The notes under the pieces were generated by a model, which made no database searches, was not told the origin of the DNA, and saw nothing but the letters and a program-made list of their open reading frames with translations. From NCBI RefSeq assembly GCF_016919385.1, contig NZ_CP070351.1:744001-808000 (forward strand): DNA of 64,000 nucleotides. The letters run 5' to 3'. A program made the translations under genes and the position numbers. Of this stretch, positions 12,309 to 15,722 are shown one piece after another. Source of the DNA: Gordonia sp. PDNC005 (GTDB lineage Bacteria > Actinomycetota > Actinomycetes > Mycobacteriales > Mycobacteriaceae). Within the stretch, counting starts at the first letter, position 1; the number at the start of each line of letters is the position of its first letter.

Positions 12309-12929
12309 TTGCAACTCGTCTCGAAGACGAAGCGGGTAGTCGAAGCGCATCTCAACAACAGTTCGATCCGTGCATTGAGCGGGTCGATGGTGGCGTTCGA
12401 AGGGCAGGTGTCCTTCAAGTCCGCTGGTTTCGGGGGCGGCGAAGGACTGGTCGCGGGAATCAAGAAGAAGGCGACCGGTGAAGGACTGTCGCTGATGGAG
12501 GCGTCCGGGACGGGCATCGTGTACCTCGCGCAGGACGCTGCCAACGTGACCGTTCTCGACCTGAACGGCGAAACCCTGCAGGTGGAGGCGTCGCAGCTGC
12601 TCGCGCTGACGCAGAACCTCACCACCAACGTCACCTTCGCCGGTGTGCGGGGCGGTGCTTCGGGGCAGGGTCTGTTCACCACGACGGTCACCGGTCAGGG
12701 GCAGGTGGCGCTGCTGTCGCAGGGCGGCCCACTCATCCACCTGGAAGTGTCGCCGCAGTTCCCGCTCGTCGTCGACCCCGATGCGTTCGTGTGCGCCAAG
12801 GGAGCGCTGTCGCAGTCGTTCGTGACCGACGTGTCGTGGCGGAACGTGGTCGGACAAGGCAACGGGGAAGCCTTCTCCCTCCGCTGGGACGGCACGGGCG
12901 TCGTCTCCATTCAGCCGGCCGAGCGATAG
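12309..12929 (+). CDS. AIM24 family protein, first of three
   Basis: A 206-residue protein of the AIM24 (DUF124) family, a beta-rich fold. Recognisable segments are MVAFEGQVSFKS, GEGLSLMEASGTGIVYLAQ, the late VDPDAFVCAKGALSQS and the ending GTGVVSIQPAE. The start is TTG behind AAGGACAGGA; no in-frame ATG or GTG fits better. It is followed at 9 bp by a second AIM24 gene and then a third. In yeast the name-giving protein affects mitochondrial architecture; the bacterial role is unknown. Confidence 0.85.
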   Translation: MQLVSKTKRVVEAHLNNSSIRALSGSMVAFEGQVSFKSAGFGGGEGLVAGIKKKATGEGLSLMEASGTGIVYLAQDAANVTVLDLNGETLQVEASQLLALTQNLTTNVTFAGVRGGASGQGLFTTTVTGQGQVALLSQGGPLIHLEVSPQFPLVVDPDAFVCAKGALSQSFVTDVSWRNVVGQGNGEAFSLRWDGTGVVSIQPAER

Positions 12930-12938
12930 GAGACGGAC

Positions 12939-13631
12939 ATGTTCACCAAGGTCAACAACAAGGTCGTGTCCGTGAACCTCGCGCAGGCTGGACCGATCGT
13001 GGCCCGCCGCGGGGCGATGCTGTTCTACACCGGCAACGTGCTGTTCCAGCCGCACCAGATCCCCGGATCGGGCGGCATGGGCGCGATGAGCGGCATGGTC
13101 GGGATGGCGGGCCGCATGATGCAGGGCGAGCACGAGACGACGATGATCGCCCAGGGCGACGGCACCGTCCACTACGGTTTTCGAGGTCTTGAAGTCGAGA
13201 TCGTCGACCTGTCCGGTGGCGGAGAACTGCGCGTCGAGGCGTCCAGGCTGCTCGCCCATACCCAGGGTCTGCAGGCGTCTGTGGTGTCGACGTCGGCCCA
13301 GTCCGGCGGAGGCGGTGGCGGACTTCGCGGTGCACTGCGGTCAGCGGCGAGCGGTGTCGCCACCGGCCAGGGGATGTTCACCACGCAACTCATCGGCATG
13401 GGATCGGCCGTGATCCTCGGCCACGGCGGGTTCATCGCGCTGCAGGTGGCGCCGAACCGGCCCATCACCGTCGACCCGCAAGCGTTCGCCGCATCTGTCG
13501 GCCAGATCCAGACCAGCCTCCGCTCGACGGTCAGCTTCCGCAACATGGGACGCACCGGCGGCGAGGGATTCCAACTCGACTGCACCGGACAGGGTGTGGT
13601 CTACGTGCAAGCATCGGAGCAACGGCTGTGA
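12939..13631 (+). CDS. AIM24 family protein, second of three
   Basis: A 230-residue AIM24 protein aligning with its neighbour: MLFYTGNVLFQPHQ, a Gly/Met-rich loop at about residues 45-65 (GSGGMGAMSGMVGMAGRMM), FRGLEVEIVDLSGGGELRVEA, and the ending GQGVVYVQASE. A second glycine-rich loop (SGGGGGGLRGAL, about 126-138) is longer than in the first protein. It has an ATG start behind AGGAGACGG. Its stop overlaps the start of the third gene by 4 nt (GTGA). Confidence 0.85.
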   Translation: MFTKVNNKVVSVNLAQAGPIVARRGAMLFYTGNVLFQPHQIPGSGGMGAMSGMVGMAGRMMQGEHETTMIAQGDGTVHYGFRGLEVEIVDLSGGGELRVEASRLLAHTQGLQASVVSTSAQSGGGGGGLRGALRSAASGVATGQGMFTTQLIGMGSAVILGHGGFIALQVAPNRPITVDPQAFAASVGQIQTSLRSTVSFRNMGRTGGEGFQLDCTGQGVVYVQASEQRL

Positions 13632-14392
13632 CACAGGTGAACACGGTGTGGAATCCGCACACTCTGCCGTCCGACGACAACGTTCCGGACAACAAGTACT
13701 CGTTCTGCATCGACCTCACCACACCGTGGTTCATGTCGAAGGGCGCGATGATCGCCTACTACGGGCAGGTCAACTTCACATCCCTGCAGCGCGGTCTGCA
13801 GGCGGGCCTGCTGCACATGGTGGCGCAGCAGTTCTCCGCGCCGCTCTACTTGAGCGACTACGTCGTGGCCGAAGGCCAGGGCAAGGTGATCATCGGCGAC
13901 CGCGGATACGAGATCAACTCGTACGACCTCGAAGACAACGGCAATCTGACGATTCGAGCGGCGAACCTCCTGGCGTTCGAACCGACACTCGCGCTCAAGC
14001 AGTCCATCGTGCCGGGGTTCCTCACCCTGATCGGAACCGGTCGATTCCTGGCGTCGTCGAACGGCAGCGTCATGTTCGTCGAACCGCCGGTCCGAGTGGA
14101 CCCGGAGGCCCTCGTCGGATGGGCCGACTGCCCGTCGCCCAGCCATCACTACGACCAGGCGTGGGTCACCGACATGCTCGGCGCGGCCGCCTCGCGTATG
14201 GGGGTGCGGTCGGGTGAGGAGCAACAGTTCGATTTCACCGGGGCGGGCACCGTTCTGGTTCAGTCGAGCGAGAAGGTGATCGACGACAGCGCCGTGGTCC
14301 GCAGCATCACCGGTCAGTTGCCCGGCGTGTCCGCGCCGGGTCTCCAGCAGATCAACGCGCACATCCAGGCGCAGATGCAGCAACACCAGTAG
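13628..14392 (+). CDS. AIM24 family protein, third of three
   Basis: A 254-residue AIM24 protein, the longest of the set. It has MIAYYGQVNFTSLQRG, EGQGKVIIGDRGYEINSY, VDPEALVGWADCPSPSHH and the ending GAGTVLVQSSEKV, then a Gln/His-rich tail. The GTG start overlaps the preceding stop, so the three proteins are probably made together and may form a hetero-oligomer (inference). The three are clearly diverged, so they are not a recent triplication. Confidence 0.83.
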   Translation: MTQVNTVWNPHTLPSDDNVPDNKYSFCIDLTTPWFMSKGAMIAYYGQVNFTSLQRGLQAGLLHMVAQQFSAPLYLSDYVVAEGQGKVIIGDRGYEINSYDLEDNGNLTIRAANLLAFEPTLALKQSIVPGFLTLIGTGRFLASSNGSVMFVEPPVRVDPEALVGWADCPSPSHHYDQAWVTDMLGAAASRMGVRSGEEQQFDFTGAGTVLVQSSEKVIDDSAVVRSITGQLPGVSAPGLQQINAHIQAQMQQHQ

Positions 14393-14433
14393 GCGCGCAC
14401 GGTCGTCGGCGCGAATGTGTTACCGTCGGAGCC

Positions 14434-14502
14434 ATGTCGACGACCGCCTATTGGCGCTTTTTTATGCAGGCTCCGGGAGAGCCTGCGATGAAGCGTCGAT
14501 AA
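14434..14502 (+). CDS. Leader peptide with aromatic codon cluster, upstream of DAHP synthase
   Basis: A 22-codon reading frame (ATG to TAA) encodes a peptide with YWRFF at residues 6-10 (TAT TGG CGC TTT TTT), so Tyr, Trp and two Phe codons fall within five positions. The ATG lies 7 nt after a TACCGT -10-like hexamer (14421-14426), which fits a leaderless transcript; GGAG also lies just before it. It ends 141 nt before the DAHP synthase start and overlaps alternative hairpins. All three aromatic end products of the pathway are represented, the mark of an attenuation leader. Confidence 0.78.
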   Translation: MSTTAYWRFFMQAPGEPAMKRR

Positions 14503-14570
14503 CGCACGTCGTACATCCCGGAGCCTGAAGCAGTGACCATCATGGGTCGCTGCTTCTTCTCGTTCCGGGA
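14467..14570 (+). promoter_or_regulatory. Candidate ribosome-mediated attenuator of DAHP synthase
   Basis: Segment 1 (14467-14478, CAGGCTCCGGGA) can pair with segment 2 (14479-14485, GAGCCTG; 7 bp) or with segment 3 (14516-14527, TCCCGGAGCCTG; 12 bp perfect). Segment 3 overlaps a second hairpin: GAAGCAGTGACC (14527-14538) with GGTCGCTGCTTC (14545-14556), one G-U pair, followed by TTCTCGTT, and extended by TCCCGGA with TCCGGGA (14564-14570). These mutually exclusive pairings next to the YWRFF codons suggest that ribosome stalling picks the fold. Whether control acts on transcription or translation is not clear, because the T-run is poor. Confidence 0.72.
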
Positions 14571-14642
14571 TGAGATGCGCGCCGCAGGGTGTTGACCGGG
14601 ACGGCCACCCCTCACCTGCGTCAGCGCCCCGAAAGGCACATC

Positions 14643-15722
14643 GTGACCATCACGTCCGACATCAGCTCGACCACCTCCGACCGTCGGGTCACCGCGTTCT
14701 CGCCGATCCCGTCCCCCGAGACGCTGCGCAGCGAACTGCCGTTGACTTCGCGACGCGCCGAAGCCGTCCAACGCGACCGCGACGAGATCGCCGCGATCCT
14801 CGCAGGCCGTGACGACCGGCTGATCGTCGTCGTCGGCCCCTGCTCCGTTCACGACCCGGTCGCTGCTCTGGACTACGCCCGCCGTCTTGCACCGCTGGCC
14901 GTCGAGTACGCCGACACCCTCAAGATCGTGATGCGCGTGTACTTCGAGAAGCCTCGCACCACCGTCGGGTGGAAGGGCCTCATCAACGACCCCGGGATGG
15001 ACTCCTCCTACGACGTGGAACGCGGTCTGCGCACCGCACGCGCGCTGCTGCTCGACGTCATCGACCTCGGGCTTCCGGTCGGCTGTGAGTTCCTCGAACC
15101 GACGAGCCCCCAGTACATCGCCGACACCGTCGCATGGGGTGCGATCGGAGCGCGCACGACCGAATCGCAGGTCCACCGCCAATTGGCGTCCGGGCTGTCG
15201 ATGCCCATCGGCTTCAAGAACGGCACCGACGGCAACGTCCAGGTCGCGATCGACGGTGTGTCGGCGGCGTCCGCCGAGCACGTGTTCTTCGGAGTCGACG
15301 ACTTCGGTCGTGGAGCCGTCGTCCAGACCGCGGGCAATGAGGACTGCCACATCATCCTGCGTGGTGGCACCCCGGGGCCGAACTACGACGCCGACTCGGT
15401 GAGCTCCGCCGTTGCGGCGCTGACGCAGGCGGGCAAGTCGCCGAAGGTGATGGTCGACTGTTCGCATGCCAACTCGGCCAAGGACCACGAGCGCCAGGCC
15501 GTCGTCGCCGTCGAGGTGGCCGAGGAGTTCGCCGCGCGGCGACGCGCCGGGGAGCCGGTGCAGCTGTCGGGCGTGATGCTCGAGAGCTTCCTCGTCCCCG
15601 GCGCGCAGAGCCTCGGCGGCGACCTCGTCTACGGGCAGTCAGTCACGGACAAGTGCATGGGGTGGGACGCCAGCGTCGACGTGCTCGCCGCCCTCCACAA
15701 CGCTGCTCACGTCGGCCGCTGA
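14643..15722 (+). CDS. aroG: 3-deoxy-7-phosphoheptulonate (DAHP) synthase, AroFGH type I
   Basis: A 359-residue type I DAHP synthase. It condenses phosphoenolpyruvate with erythrose 4-phosphate, the first committed step to Phe, Tyr and Trp. Conserved elements are VVVGPCSVHDP (about residue 63), MRVYFEKPRTTVGWKG, GARTTESQVHR, IGFKNGTDGN, the metal-binding cysteine in GPCS and VDCSHANS. The GTG at 14643 with GAAAGG just upstream fits the family length; an in-frame ATG at 14589 would add 18 unrelated residues. It is preceded by the leader peptide and attenuator. The symbol aroG follows the family; aroF or aroH would be equally fair. Confidence 0.93.
   Translation: MTITSDISSTTSDRRVTAFSPIPSPETLRSELPLTSRRAEAVQRDRDEIAAILAGRDDRLIVVVGPCSVHDPVAALDYARRLAPLAVEYADTLKIVMRVYFEKPRTTVGWKGLINDPGMDSSYDVERGLRTARALLLDVIDLGLPVGCEFLEPTSPQYIADTVAWGAIGARTTESQVHRQLASGLSMPIGFKNGTDGNVQVAIDGVSAASAEHVFFGVDDFGRGAVVQTAGNEDCHIILRGGTPGPNYDADSVSSAVAALTQAGKSPKVMVDCSHANSAKDHERQAVVAVEVAEEFAARRRAGEPVQLSGVMLESFLVPGAQSLGGDLVYGQSVTDKCMGWDASVDVLAALHNAAHVGR

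Follow-up and report, generated by a model that had tools for sequence, protein, structure and literature searches.

Upstream of aroG, the DAHP synthase gene of Gordonia sp. PDNC005, lies a short leader peptide frame in which Tyr, Trp and Phe codons are clustered, followed by RNA segments that can pair in alternative ways. We interpret this element, with a probability of about 0.78, as a leaderless ribosome-mediated attenuator, the ortholog of aroR of Corynebacterium glutamicum, that matches DAHP synthase expression to the charging of the Tyr, Trp and Phe tRNAs. Attenuation of this type had been proposed in a sequence-only reading of the window (the whole stretch of 64,000 nucleotides that was analysed, to which all coordinates refer), and it is supported by the leader frame, the pairing, the covariation and the layout in common with aroR. 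In more general terms, it is very probable that aroG is preceded by an aromatic attenuator of a kind that is already known, more widespread and more modular than in the descriptions that we found. If true, a single leader would couple the entry step of the shikimate pathway to the tRNA charging of its three products. C. glutamicum is the sole described actinobacterial case that we found in the available text of the open-licence literature.

The leader and its pairing segments

The features of the locus, all on the + strand, are the following.

14418..14426, +, extended -10 element TGT TACCGT, ending 7 nt before the leader ATG; predicted leaderless-mRNA promoter
14434..14502, +, leader peptide ORF of 22 codons, MSTTAYWRFFMQAPGEPAMKRR (ATG at 14434, stop at 14500-14502), from the window sequence and the leaders of relatives
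14449..14463, +, sensor codons TAT TGG CGC TTT TTT (Tyr-Trp-Arg-Phe-Phe), with the Y-W-R-F core in 59/59 Gordonia
14449..14460, +, segment A, pairing with C2 (14490-14501); predicted to be covered when a ribosome stalls at the sensor codons
14467..14478, +, segment B, CAGGCTCCGGGA, partner of C (leader hairpin) or D (antiterminator)
14479..14501, +, segments C (14479-14487) and C2 (14490-14501), the 3' half of the leader hairpin
14516..14527, +, segment D, TCCCGGAGCCTG, perfect 12-bp partner of B; alternatively pairs with E
14527..14556, +, hairpin T, 12 bp with a loop of 6 and the tail TTCTCGTTC; terminator-like
14562..14572, +, segment E, pairing with D (14514-14524) and thereby enclosing T
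14631..14636, +, Shine-Dalgarno sequence GAAAGG of aroG, from the window sequence
14643..15722, +, aroG/aroF, type I (AroFGH) DAHP synthase with a GTG start (TIGR00034, 499.6 bits; PF00793, 294.5 bits)

The 22-codon leader with its run of aromatic codons at 14449-14463, the starting point of the sequence-only reading, is present in the window as claimed, and the stop codon of its upstream neighbour lies at 14390-14392. The sensor codons are unusual for the genome: in a script-selected set of 42 CDS-like ORFs from the window, TAT makes up 12% of the Tyr codons and TTT 4.6% of the Phe codons; by the same count, GCT accounts for 5.8% of the Ala codons. The stretch 14393-14642 was shuffled 2000 times with its dinucleotides preserved; 24 of the shuffled sequences contained a short ORF in which Y, W and F fell within six codons, 2 contained an inverted repeat of at least 12, and none contained both. 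Two further frames are found around the element. A 346-aa ORF runs on the minus strand opposite aroG (14448-15488) and is likely an artefact of high G+C. Three tandem ORFs (12309-14392) lie upstream, which by eye we take to resemble AIM24-family paralogs.

Segment B has the two alternative partners that had been proposed for it: it is the exact reverse complement of D (12 perfect bp between 14467-14478 and 14516-14527), and it can instead pair with 14479-14485, within C. The accompanying claim, that the 12-bp match excludes a hairpin at 14516-14570, stands for one part of that hairpin and falls for the other. The hairpin consists of two nested parts, the inner T (14527-14556) and the outer D:E stem (14514-14524 with 14562-14572). 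B:D shares a single base with T, 14527, and both the window fold and the stalled-state calculations indicate that it is incompatible with D:E and with the leader hairpin while leaving T in place. The region from 14434 to 14642 folds at -111.9 kcal/mol (z -8.1), whereas 200 shuffles of it gave -76.8 +/- 4.3. A terminator-like match occurs once in 14300-14760, at T (1 vs 0.1 expected), and the T-run in its tail is poor, as had been noticed. The D:E match has p 0.015 against shuffles at the window locus, and complementarity between D and E is above shuffles (p<=0.05) in 64/116 loci; in 114/129 loci, the distance between D and T is -2 to +1 nt. No Rfam 15 model, T-box included, matched 14000-15000 at E<=1, and none reached its gathering threshold in 8 other leader loci.

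Leaderless initiation, suggested earlier from the -10-like hexamer close to the ATG, has gained support. TACCGT occupies 14421-14426, with the TG of the extended -10 at 14418-14419. A TANNNT box stands 6-8 nt ahead of an in-frame ATG or GTG in 134/134 leaders and in 37/2680 shuffles, the start codon having been chosen to fit the box and the shuffles having been given nearly equal freedom; the start site itself is a predicted one. Among the 59 Gordonia the spacing is exactly 7 nt in 58, and the TG is likewise found in 58. A consensus scan of 14300-14760 for two hexamers (-35 and -10) gave no promoter. From the sequence, we infer that the transcript probably starts at the leader and that the leader is translated. 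At the other end of the element, the Shine-Dalgarno sequence of aroG reads GAAAGG in 52 Gordonia, GAGAGG in 6 and GAAGGG in 1. The Pfam model of type II DAHP synthases has one match in the genome, away from this locus.

Conservation and predicted switching

Conservation of the frame and of the pairing in relatives was what the sequence-only reading staked itself on. All 59 Gordonia genomes have a type I DAHP synthase, the leader precedes it in each of them, and both the frame and at least 9 of the 11 B:D pairs are kept throughout. The core codons TAT TGG CG. with a final TTT are found in 59/59, and the Y-W-F rule holds in the same 59 as opposed to 16/1770 shuffles and 1/59 on the reverse strand. 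The aromatic codons are conserved further out as well: the Y-W-F frame occurs in 48/53 other Mycobacteriaceae loci, hand-picked from the 323/401 genomes with a match, and in 22/30 named actinobacterial loci, which are all the named ones among the best 80 DAHP synthase matches. In the remaining 5/53 and 8/30 the Y-W-F leader is absent or different; the eight include L041, where WYWRY occurs as a variant. In another 11 loci that were examined, no leader was found in 4 (L242-L245).

The helices show compensatory changes too. In the alignment of the 59 Gordonia (A1), 100% of the cells of T are paired and four of its pairs have changed on both sides, 90.1% of cells are paired in the main helix of the leader hairpin, and 92.3% in B:D, with one pair changed on both sides. 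Five rows of A1 are misregistered at D, hence B:D was recounted free of register, giving 11/11 pairs in 32 loci, 10 in 20 and 9 in 7. Four of the five covariation measures in Gordonia were reached by at most 2/500 shuffles; the number of pair types was not above shuffles (107 and 92 of 500). Across families, 35 leaders were aligned (A2), and the both-sided stem changes anticipated by the sequence-only reading are found in 12/22 pairs of these chosen rows, 3 in B:D and 9 in T. Both-sided changes amount to 67 cells vs 15.1 in shuffles (0/500 as high), and all five measures are unmatched by 500 shuffles, which, here as in Gordonia, ignore the relatedness of the sequences. Pairing reaches 96.8% of cells overall and 98.7% for T, and falls to ~50% or less when the partners are slid by 1-3 columns. 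The rows of A2 were hand-picked from 134 leaders and omit loci in which T was not found adjacent to D (YFWF types, groups g20 and g24, and four of five Corynebacterium); therefore, this covariation holds for the chosen subset with T beside D. In a further alignment (A3), T appears in two registers, and A3 was left out of model building.

The proposed mechanism would run as follows. When Tyr, Trp or Phe is scarce, the ribosome would stall at YWRFF and cover segment A, which would keep the leader hairpin A.B:C.C2 from closing and leave B free. Free B and D would then pair over 12 bp as the nascent RNA emerges, and transcription would read through into aroG. When the three amino acids are plentiful, the ribosome would clear the leader, masking B at first, after which the leader hairpin would trap it. 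D would remain available for the T and D-T-E hairpins, leading to an early stop of transcription.

We modelled the stalled ribosome with ViennaRNA by blocking the leader up to Tyr+15. In RNAs cut after T, the block raised the mean probability of B:D from 0.32 to 0.94 in the 59 Gordonia, from 0.21 to 0.91 in group g29 and from 0.36 to 0.97 in g30. In full RNAs, it lowered the probability that D pairs with downstream bases from 0.53 to 0.12 in Gordonia and from 0.55 to 0.07 in g29. The corresponding B:D values are 0.77 to 0.89 in cut RNAs of the named loci, 0.80 to 0.82 in g4, 0.77 to 0.92 in g20 and 0.88 to 0.91 in g24; the computed switch appears weak in these, and generally outside Gordonia, g29, g18 and g30, because B:D already stands at 0.77-0.88 without a stall. 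For the window itself, the probability of B:D is 0.52 without ribosome, 0.95 with a stall at Tyr and 0.95 at Trp, 0.66 at the first Phe and 0.41 at the second, the Phe stalls covering part of B. The codons for all three products are present, as the sequence-only reading had it; a stall at Tyr or Trp is, however, predicted to give more B:D pairing than a stall at Phe. With the ribosome at the stop codon B:D is still at 0.92, a modelled value that counts against the simple mechanism unless release is fast. Moreover, the full-length window RNA at equilibrium is at D:E >=0.96 even with a stall at the sensor codons, and in it B:D would be favoured by folding order alone. The high B:D at the stop codon and the return of the full-length RNA to D:E weigh against a switch at simple equilibrium, and folding order must matter if the model is right. 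T forms with a probability of at least 0.99 in every computed state of the window RNA.

Proposed output of the switch

Whether the switch controls termination or ribosome access was left open in the sequence-only reading. The output that we favour is premature termination, either at T or at D-T-E as a whole, which B:D would prevent: T is always formed, D lies beside it, the accessibility of the Shine-Dalgarno sequence does not differ between the states, and T is the sole terminator-like site found in 14300-14760. Two points weigh against this output: given the probability of T in every state, B:D would not remove it, and the tail TTCTCGTTC is a poor U-tract. The abutting B:D helix may clash with the RNA exit channel, or D-T-E as a whole may be the terminator. 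Mycobacteria are described in passages of PMC12288462 as having hairpin terminators without a U-tract, NusG at poor U-tracts and mostly Rho-dependent termination, and the titles cited there conflict on the need for a U-tract.

The poor U-tract, which the window shares with many relatives, also suits a different output of the same sensor, in which T and D-T-E are structural only and the leader decides on Rho termination before aroG. Rho termination is predominant in mycobacteria according to the available text of PMC12288462. Nevertheless, such an output is unlikely in our view, considering that compensatory changes preserve T across families and that T is followed by a longer T run both in C. 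glutamicum and at the majority of the chorismate mutase loci introduced below. Alternatively, the sensor could act on translation, with D:E and B:D relaying via an additional segment, F, to hide or free the Shine-Dalgarno sequence of aroG. The modelled accessibility of that sequence argues against this: the Gordonia mean is 0.54 vs 0.53 between states, with a rise of more than 0.1 in 4/59 and a fall in 7/59, the named loci rise in 4/21 and fall in 1/21, and each of the other groups summarised has 0 or 1 rise and 0 or 1 fall. Phe limitation, furthermore, is described as raising transcription of the operon in C. glutamicum (PMC11802643, available passages). We consider translational output decidedly unlikely, even though D:E complementarity exceeds shuffles in more than half of the loci, several relatives have by eye a GGTGCC-type segment that could pair with E or with the flank of the Shine-Dalgarno sequence, and aroR is called a translational regulatory leader peptide controlling aroF in passages of PMC7356990. 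Sequestration of the Shine-Dalgarno sequence was accordingly rejected as a candidate, with no difference between states in the 129/134 leaders modelled, a set that omits five leaders without recognised start and Shine-Dalgarno sequence.

The peptide, instead of its codons, might be what counts, arresting the ribosome or acting in trans; indeed, YWRF and AP are kept over wide distances. Within Gordonia, APGGA and APGEP alternate and the B:C register shifts along with them, which points to selection on the RNA and not on the peptide, and the chorismate mutase leaders retain the RNA layout while their aromatic residues have changed. We therefore regard peptide action as very improbable.

Relation to aroR and distribution

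The sequence-only reading knew of no described case in this group; one exists, the aroR-aroF attenuator of C. glutamicum. It was reportedly described by Neshat et al. in 2014, a work that we know via papers citing it (PMC11802643, PMC7356990 and PMC6892785); PMC4046766 and PMC3890552 are older than that work. A leader with Phe-Tyr-Phe precedes aroF (available passages of PMC11802643 and PMC4046766) and acts by transcription attenuation responsive to Phe but not Tyr (PMC11802643, likewise in passages); the leader peptide at aroF is also named in part of PMC3890552, and attenuation of aro genes in part of PMC6892785. We located the aroR locus by a published primer, which matches 1/242 Corynebacterium genomes. 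The leader is MFAARFYFMSGSGASPRQLAISCAT; segment B is GGCTCCGG and segment D is CCGGAGTC, six T come directly after the T hairpin, and TAAGGT stands 8 nt before the leader ATG.

The window element and aroR-aroF are alike in the short leader with clustered aromatic codons, the type I DAHP synthase downstream, the common pairing segments GGCTCCGG and CCGGAG, the position of D directly before T, and the -10 box near the leader start (8 nt in C. glutamicum, 7 nt in the window). They differ in the codons (Tyr-Trp-Phe in the window, Phe-Tyr-Phe in C. glutamicum), in the tail (TTCTCGTTC in the window, TTTTTT in C. glutamicum) and in the outer D:E stem, which the window has and which is not significant in L142, the sole Corynebacterium locus scored (C. 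glutamicum itself is outside this scoring). We assume a strong U-tract to be a defining trait of the aroR-aroF type. Since position, gene and segments agree, the window element is taken as a putative ortholog of aroR. Three features are new compared with aroR: a broad distribution, a Trp codon among the sensor codons, and the occurrence of the RNA layout in front of chorismate mutase genes and of one tyrS.

In a classical attenuator, the antiterminator overlaps the 5' arm of the terminator hairpin. The window element resembles the classical trp, phe and his attenuators of the Yanofsky type in its sensor codons, its alternative hairpins and a leader hairpin by which the antiterminator strand is either sequestered or released; unlike in them, its B:D helix abuts T, three amino acids would be sensed and the mRNA is predicted to be leaderless. 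Among Actinobacteria, trp attenuators of Corynebacterium and Streptomyces are reported in the available part of a comparative study from 2005 (PMC1262725), which at the phenylalanine and tyrosine genes found no conserved RNA structure. Leader-peptide attenuators with leaderless uORFs are described for S. lividans (PMC8079986, Table 4) and Cys uORFs for mycobacteria (PMC4633059), both in excerpts. These share with the window a short, often leaderless ORF ahead of an amino acid gene and, in several S. lividans cases, the lack of a U-rich stretch, whereas they sense other amino acids, and the accessible text of PMC8079986, which names eight S. lividans leaders, places none of them before a DAHP synthase gene. 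Shewanella aroF is listed with a Tyr-tRNA-sensing attenuator, citing E. coli work (PMC2659441, in part). A description of such a leader in Gordonia or more widely in Actinobacteria was not found in the accessible open-licence literature, and term look-ups in the available text of PMC4833913, PMC13236596, PMC4633059, PMC2965389 and PMC10117765 returned none.

A covariance model of B:D and T (R1) matches 64/394 genomes of the class at E<=0.01. All of the 30 best R1 loci from the genome itself and the class (L195, L197-L225) lie before a type I DAHP synthase. A type I DAHP synthase (E<=1e-60) occurs in 78 genomes of the class sample; in 42 of them an R1 match ends 36-167 nt before the gene on the same strand, and the other 36 lack such a match, the class scan with R1 having used stricter filters. 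The 64 include five genomes whose only matches are weak (E 5e-4 to 3e-3) and the incomplete genome G830, whose match is strong. A second match in the genome of the window (E 5e-4, L196) was rejected, being an ordinary hairpin behind another gene at a locus without DAHP synthase.

R1 also matches in front of other genes. In family f19, 15 genomes have a match (E<=2.8e-7) away from DAHP synthase. At each of the eight f19 loci examined (L226-L229, L231-L234), the gene downstream of the match encodes a chorismate mutase domain. In six loci this gene also carries a weak or partial DAHP synthase domain, one of the six falling below the Pfam cut-off, and in two it is stand-alone. The leaders contain Phe in 8/8, Tyr in 5/8 and Trp in none, and the TANNNT box stands 6-7 nt before the start in 8/8. 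In genome G924 (L230), the R1 layout precedes tyrS (TIGR00234), with a single Tyr codon in the leader (482-545, 0-based start, of the reversed locus) and the box at 7 nt. Sensor codons that differ by target gene would fit sensing by codon content, eight cases and one case being small samples.

Perhaps, then, Actinobacteria share one homologous attenuator family that serves as an exchangeable chassis, with codons swapped by gene and the antiterminator abutting the terminator hairpin; we propose this tentatively and give it slightly less than an even chance. The common parts would be the leaderless promoter spacing and segments B, D and T, and the codons Tyr-Trp-Phe for DAHP synthase, Phe with or without Tyr and no Trp for chorismate mutase, and one Tyr for tyrS. 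Such a codon swap among the copies at DAHP synthase, chorismate mutase and tyrS amounts to a natural experiment on codon-specific sensing, and the abutting B:D and T geometry permits a direct test of antiterminator placement.

Leaders of another type retain the aromatic cluster as YFWF (L093, L107, L235-L239; AYWF in L095), with Nocardia, Antrihabitans and Rhodococcus as the named cases. Judged by eye, the hairpin of these leaders is a different one with a 5' arm similar to D, nearer to the classical overlapping arrangement. R1 does not detect YFWF-type leaders, for which Nocardia, Rhodococcus and Amycolatopsis are named cases: it misses 5/5 class-sample genomes of g22 and g6 that have a DAHP synthase. 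Non-actinobacterial DAHP synthase loci had been meant as a negative control (L052-L110, 400 nt upstream, 46 of 50 loci after four short ones were dropped). As a control they failed: a short ORF with Tyr, Trp and Phe inside six codons is present in 31/46 of them, as opposed to 76/1840 shuffles and 3/46 on the reverse strand. Aromatic leaders before DAHP synthase seem to occur across phyla, with sequences that are unlike one another. Many of these ORFs belong to Betaproteobacteria and Bradyrhizobium and one to a Xanthomonas, with FYFYFWFSVPGG and SYFWYFSYDSS as examples.
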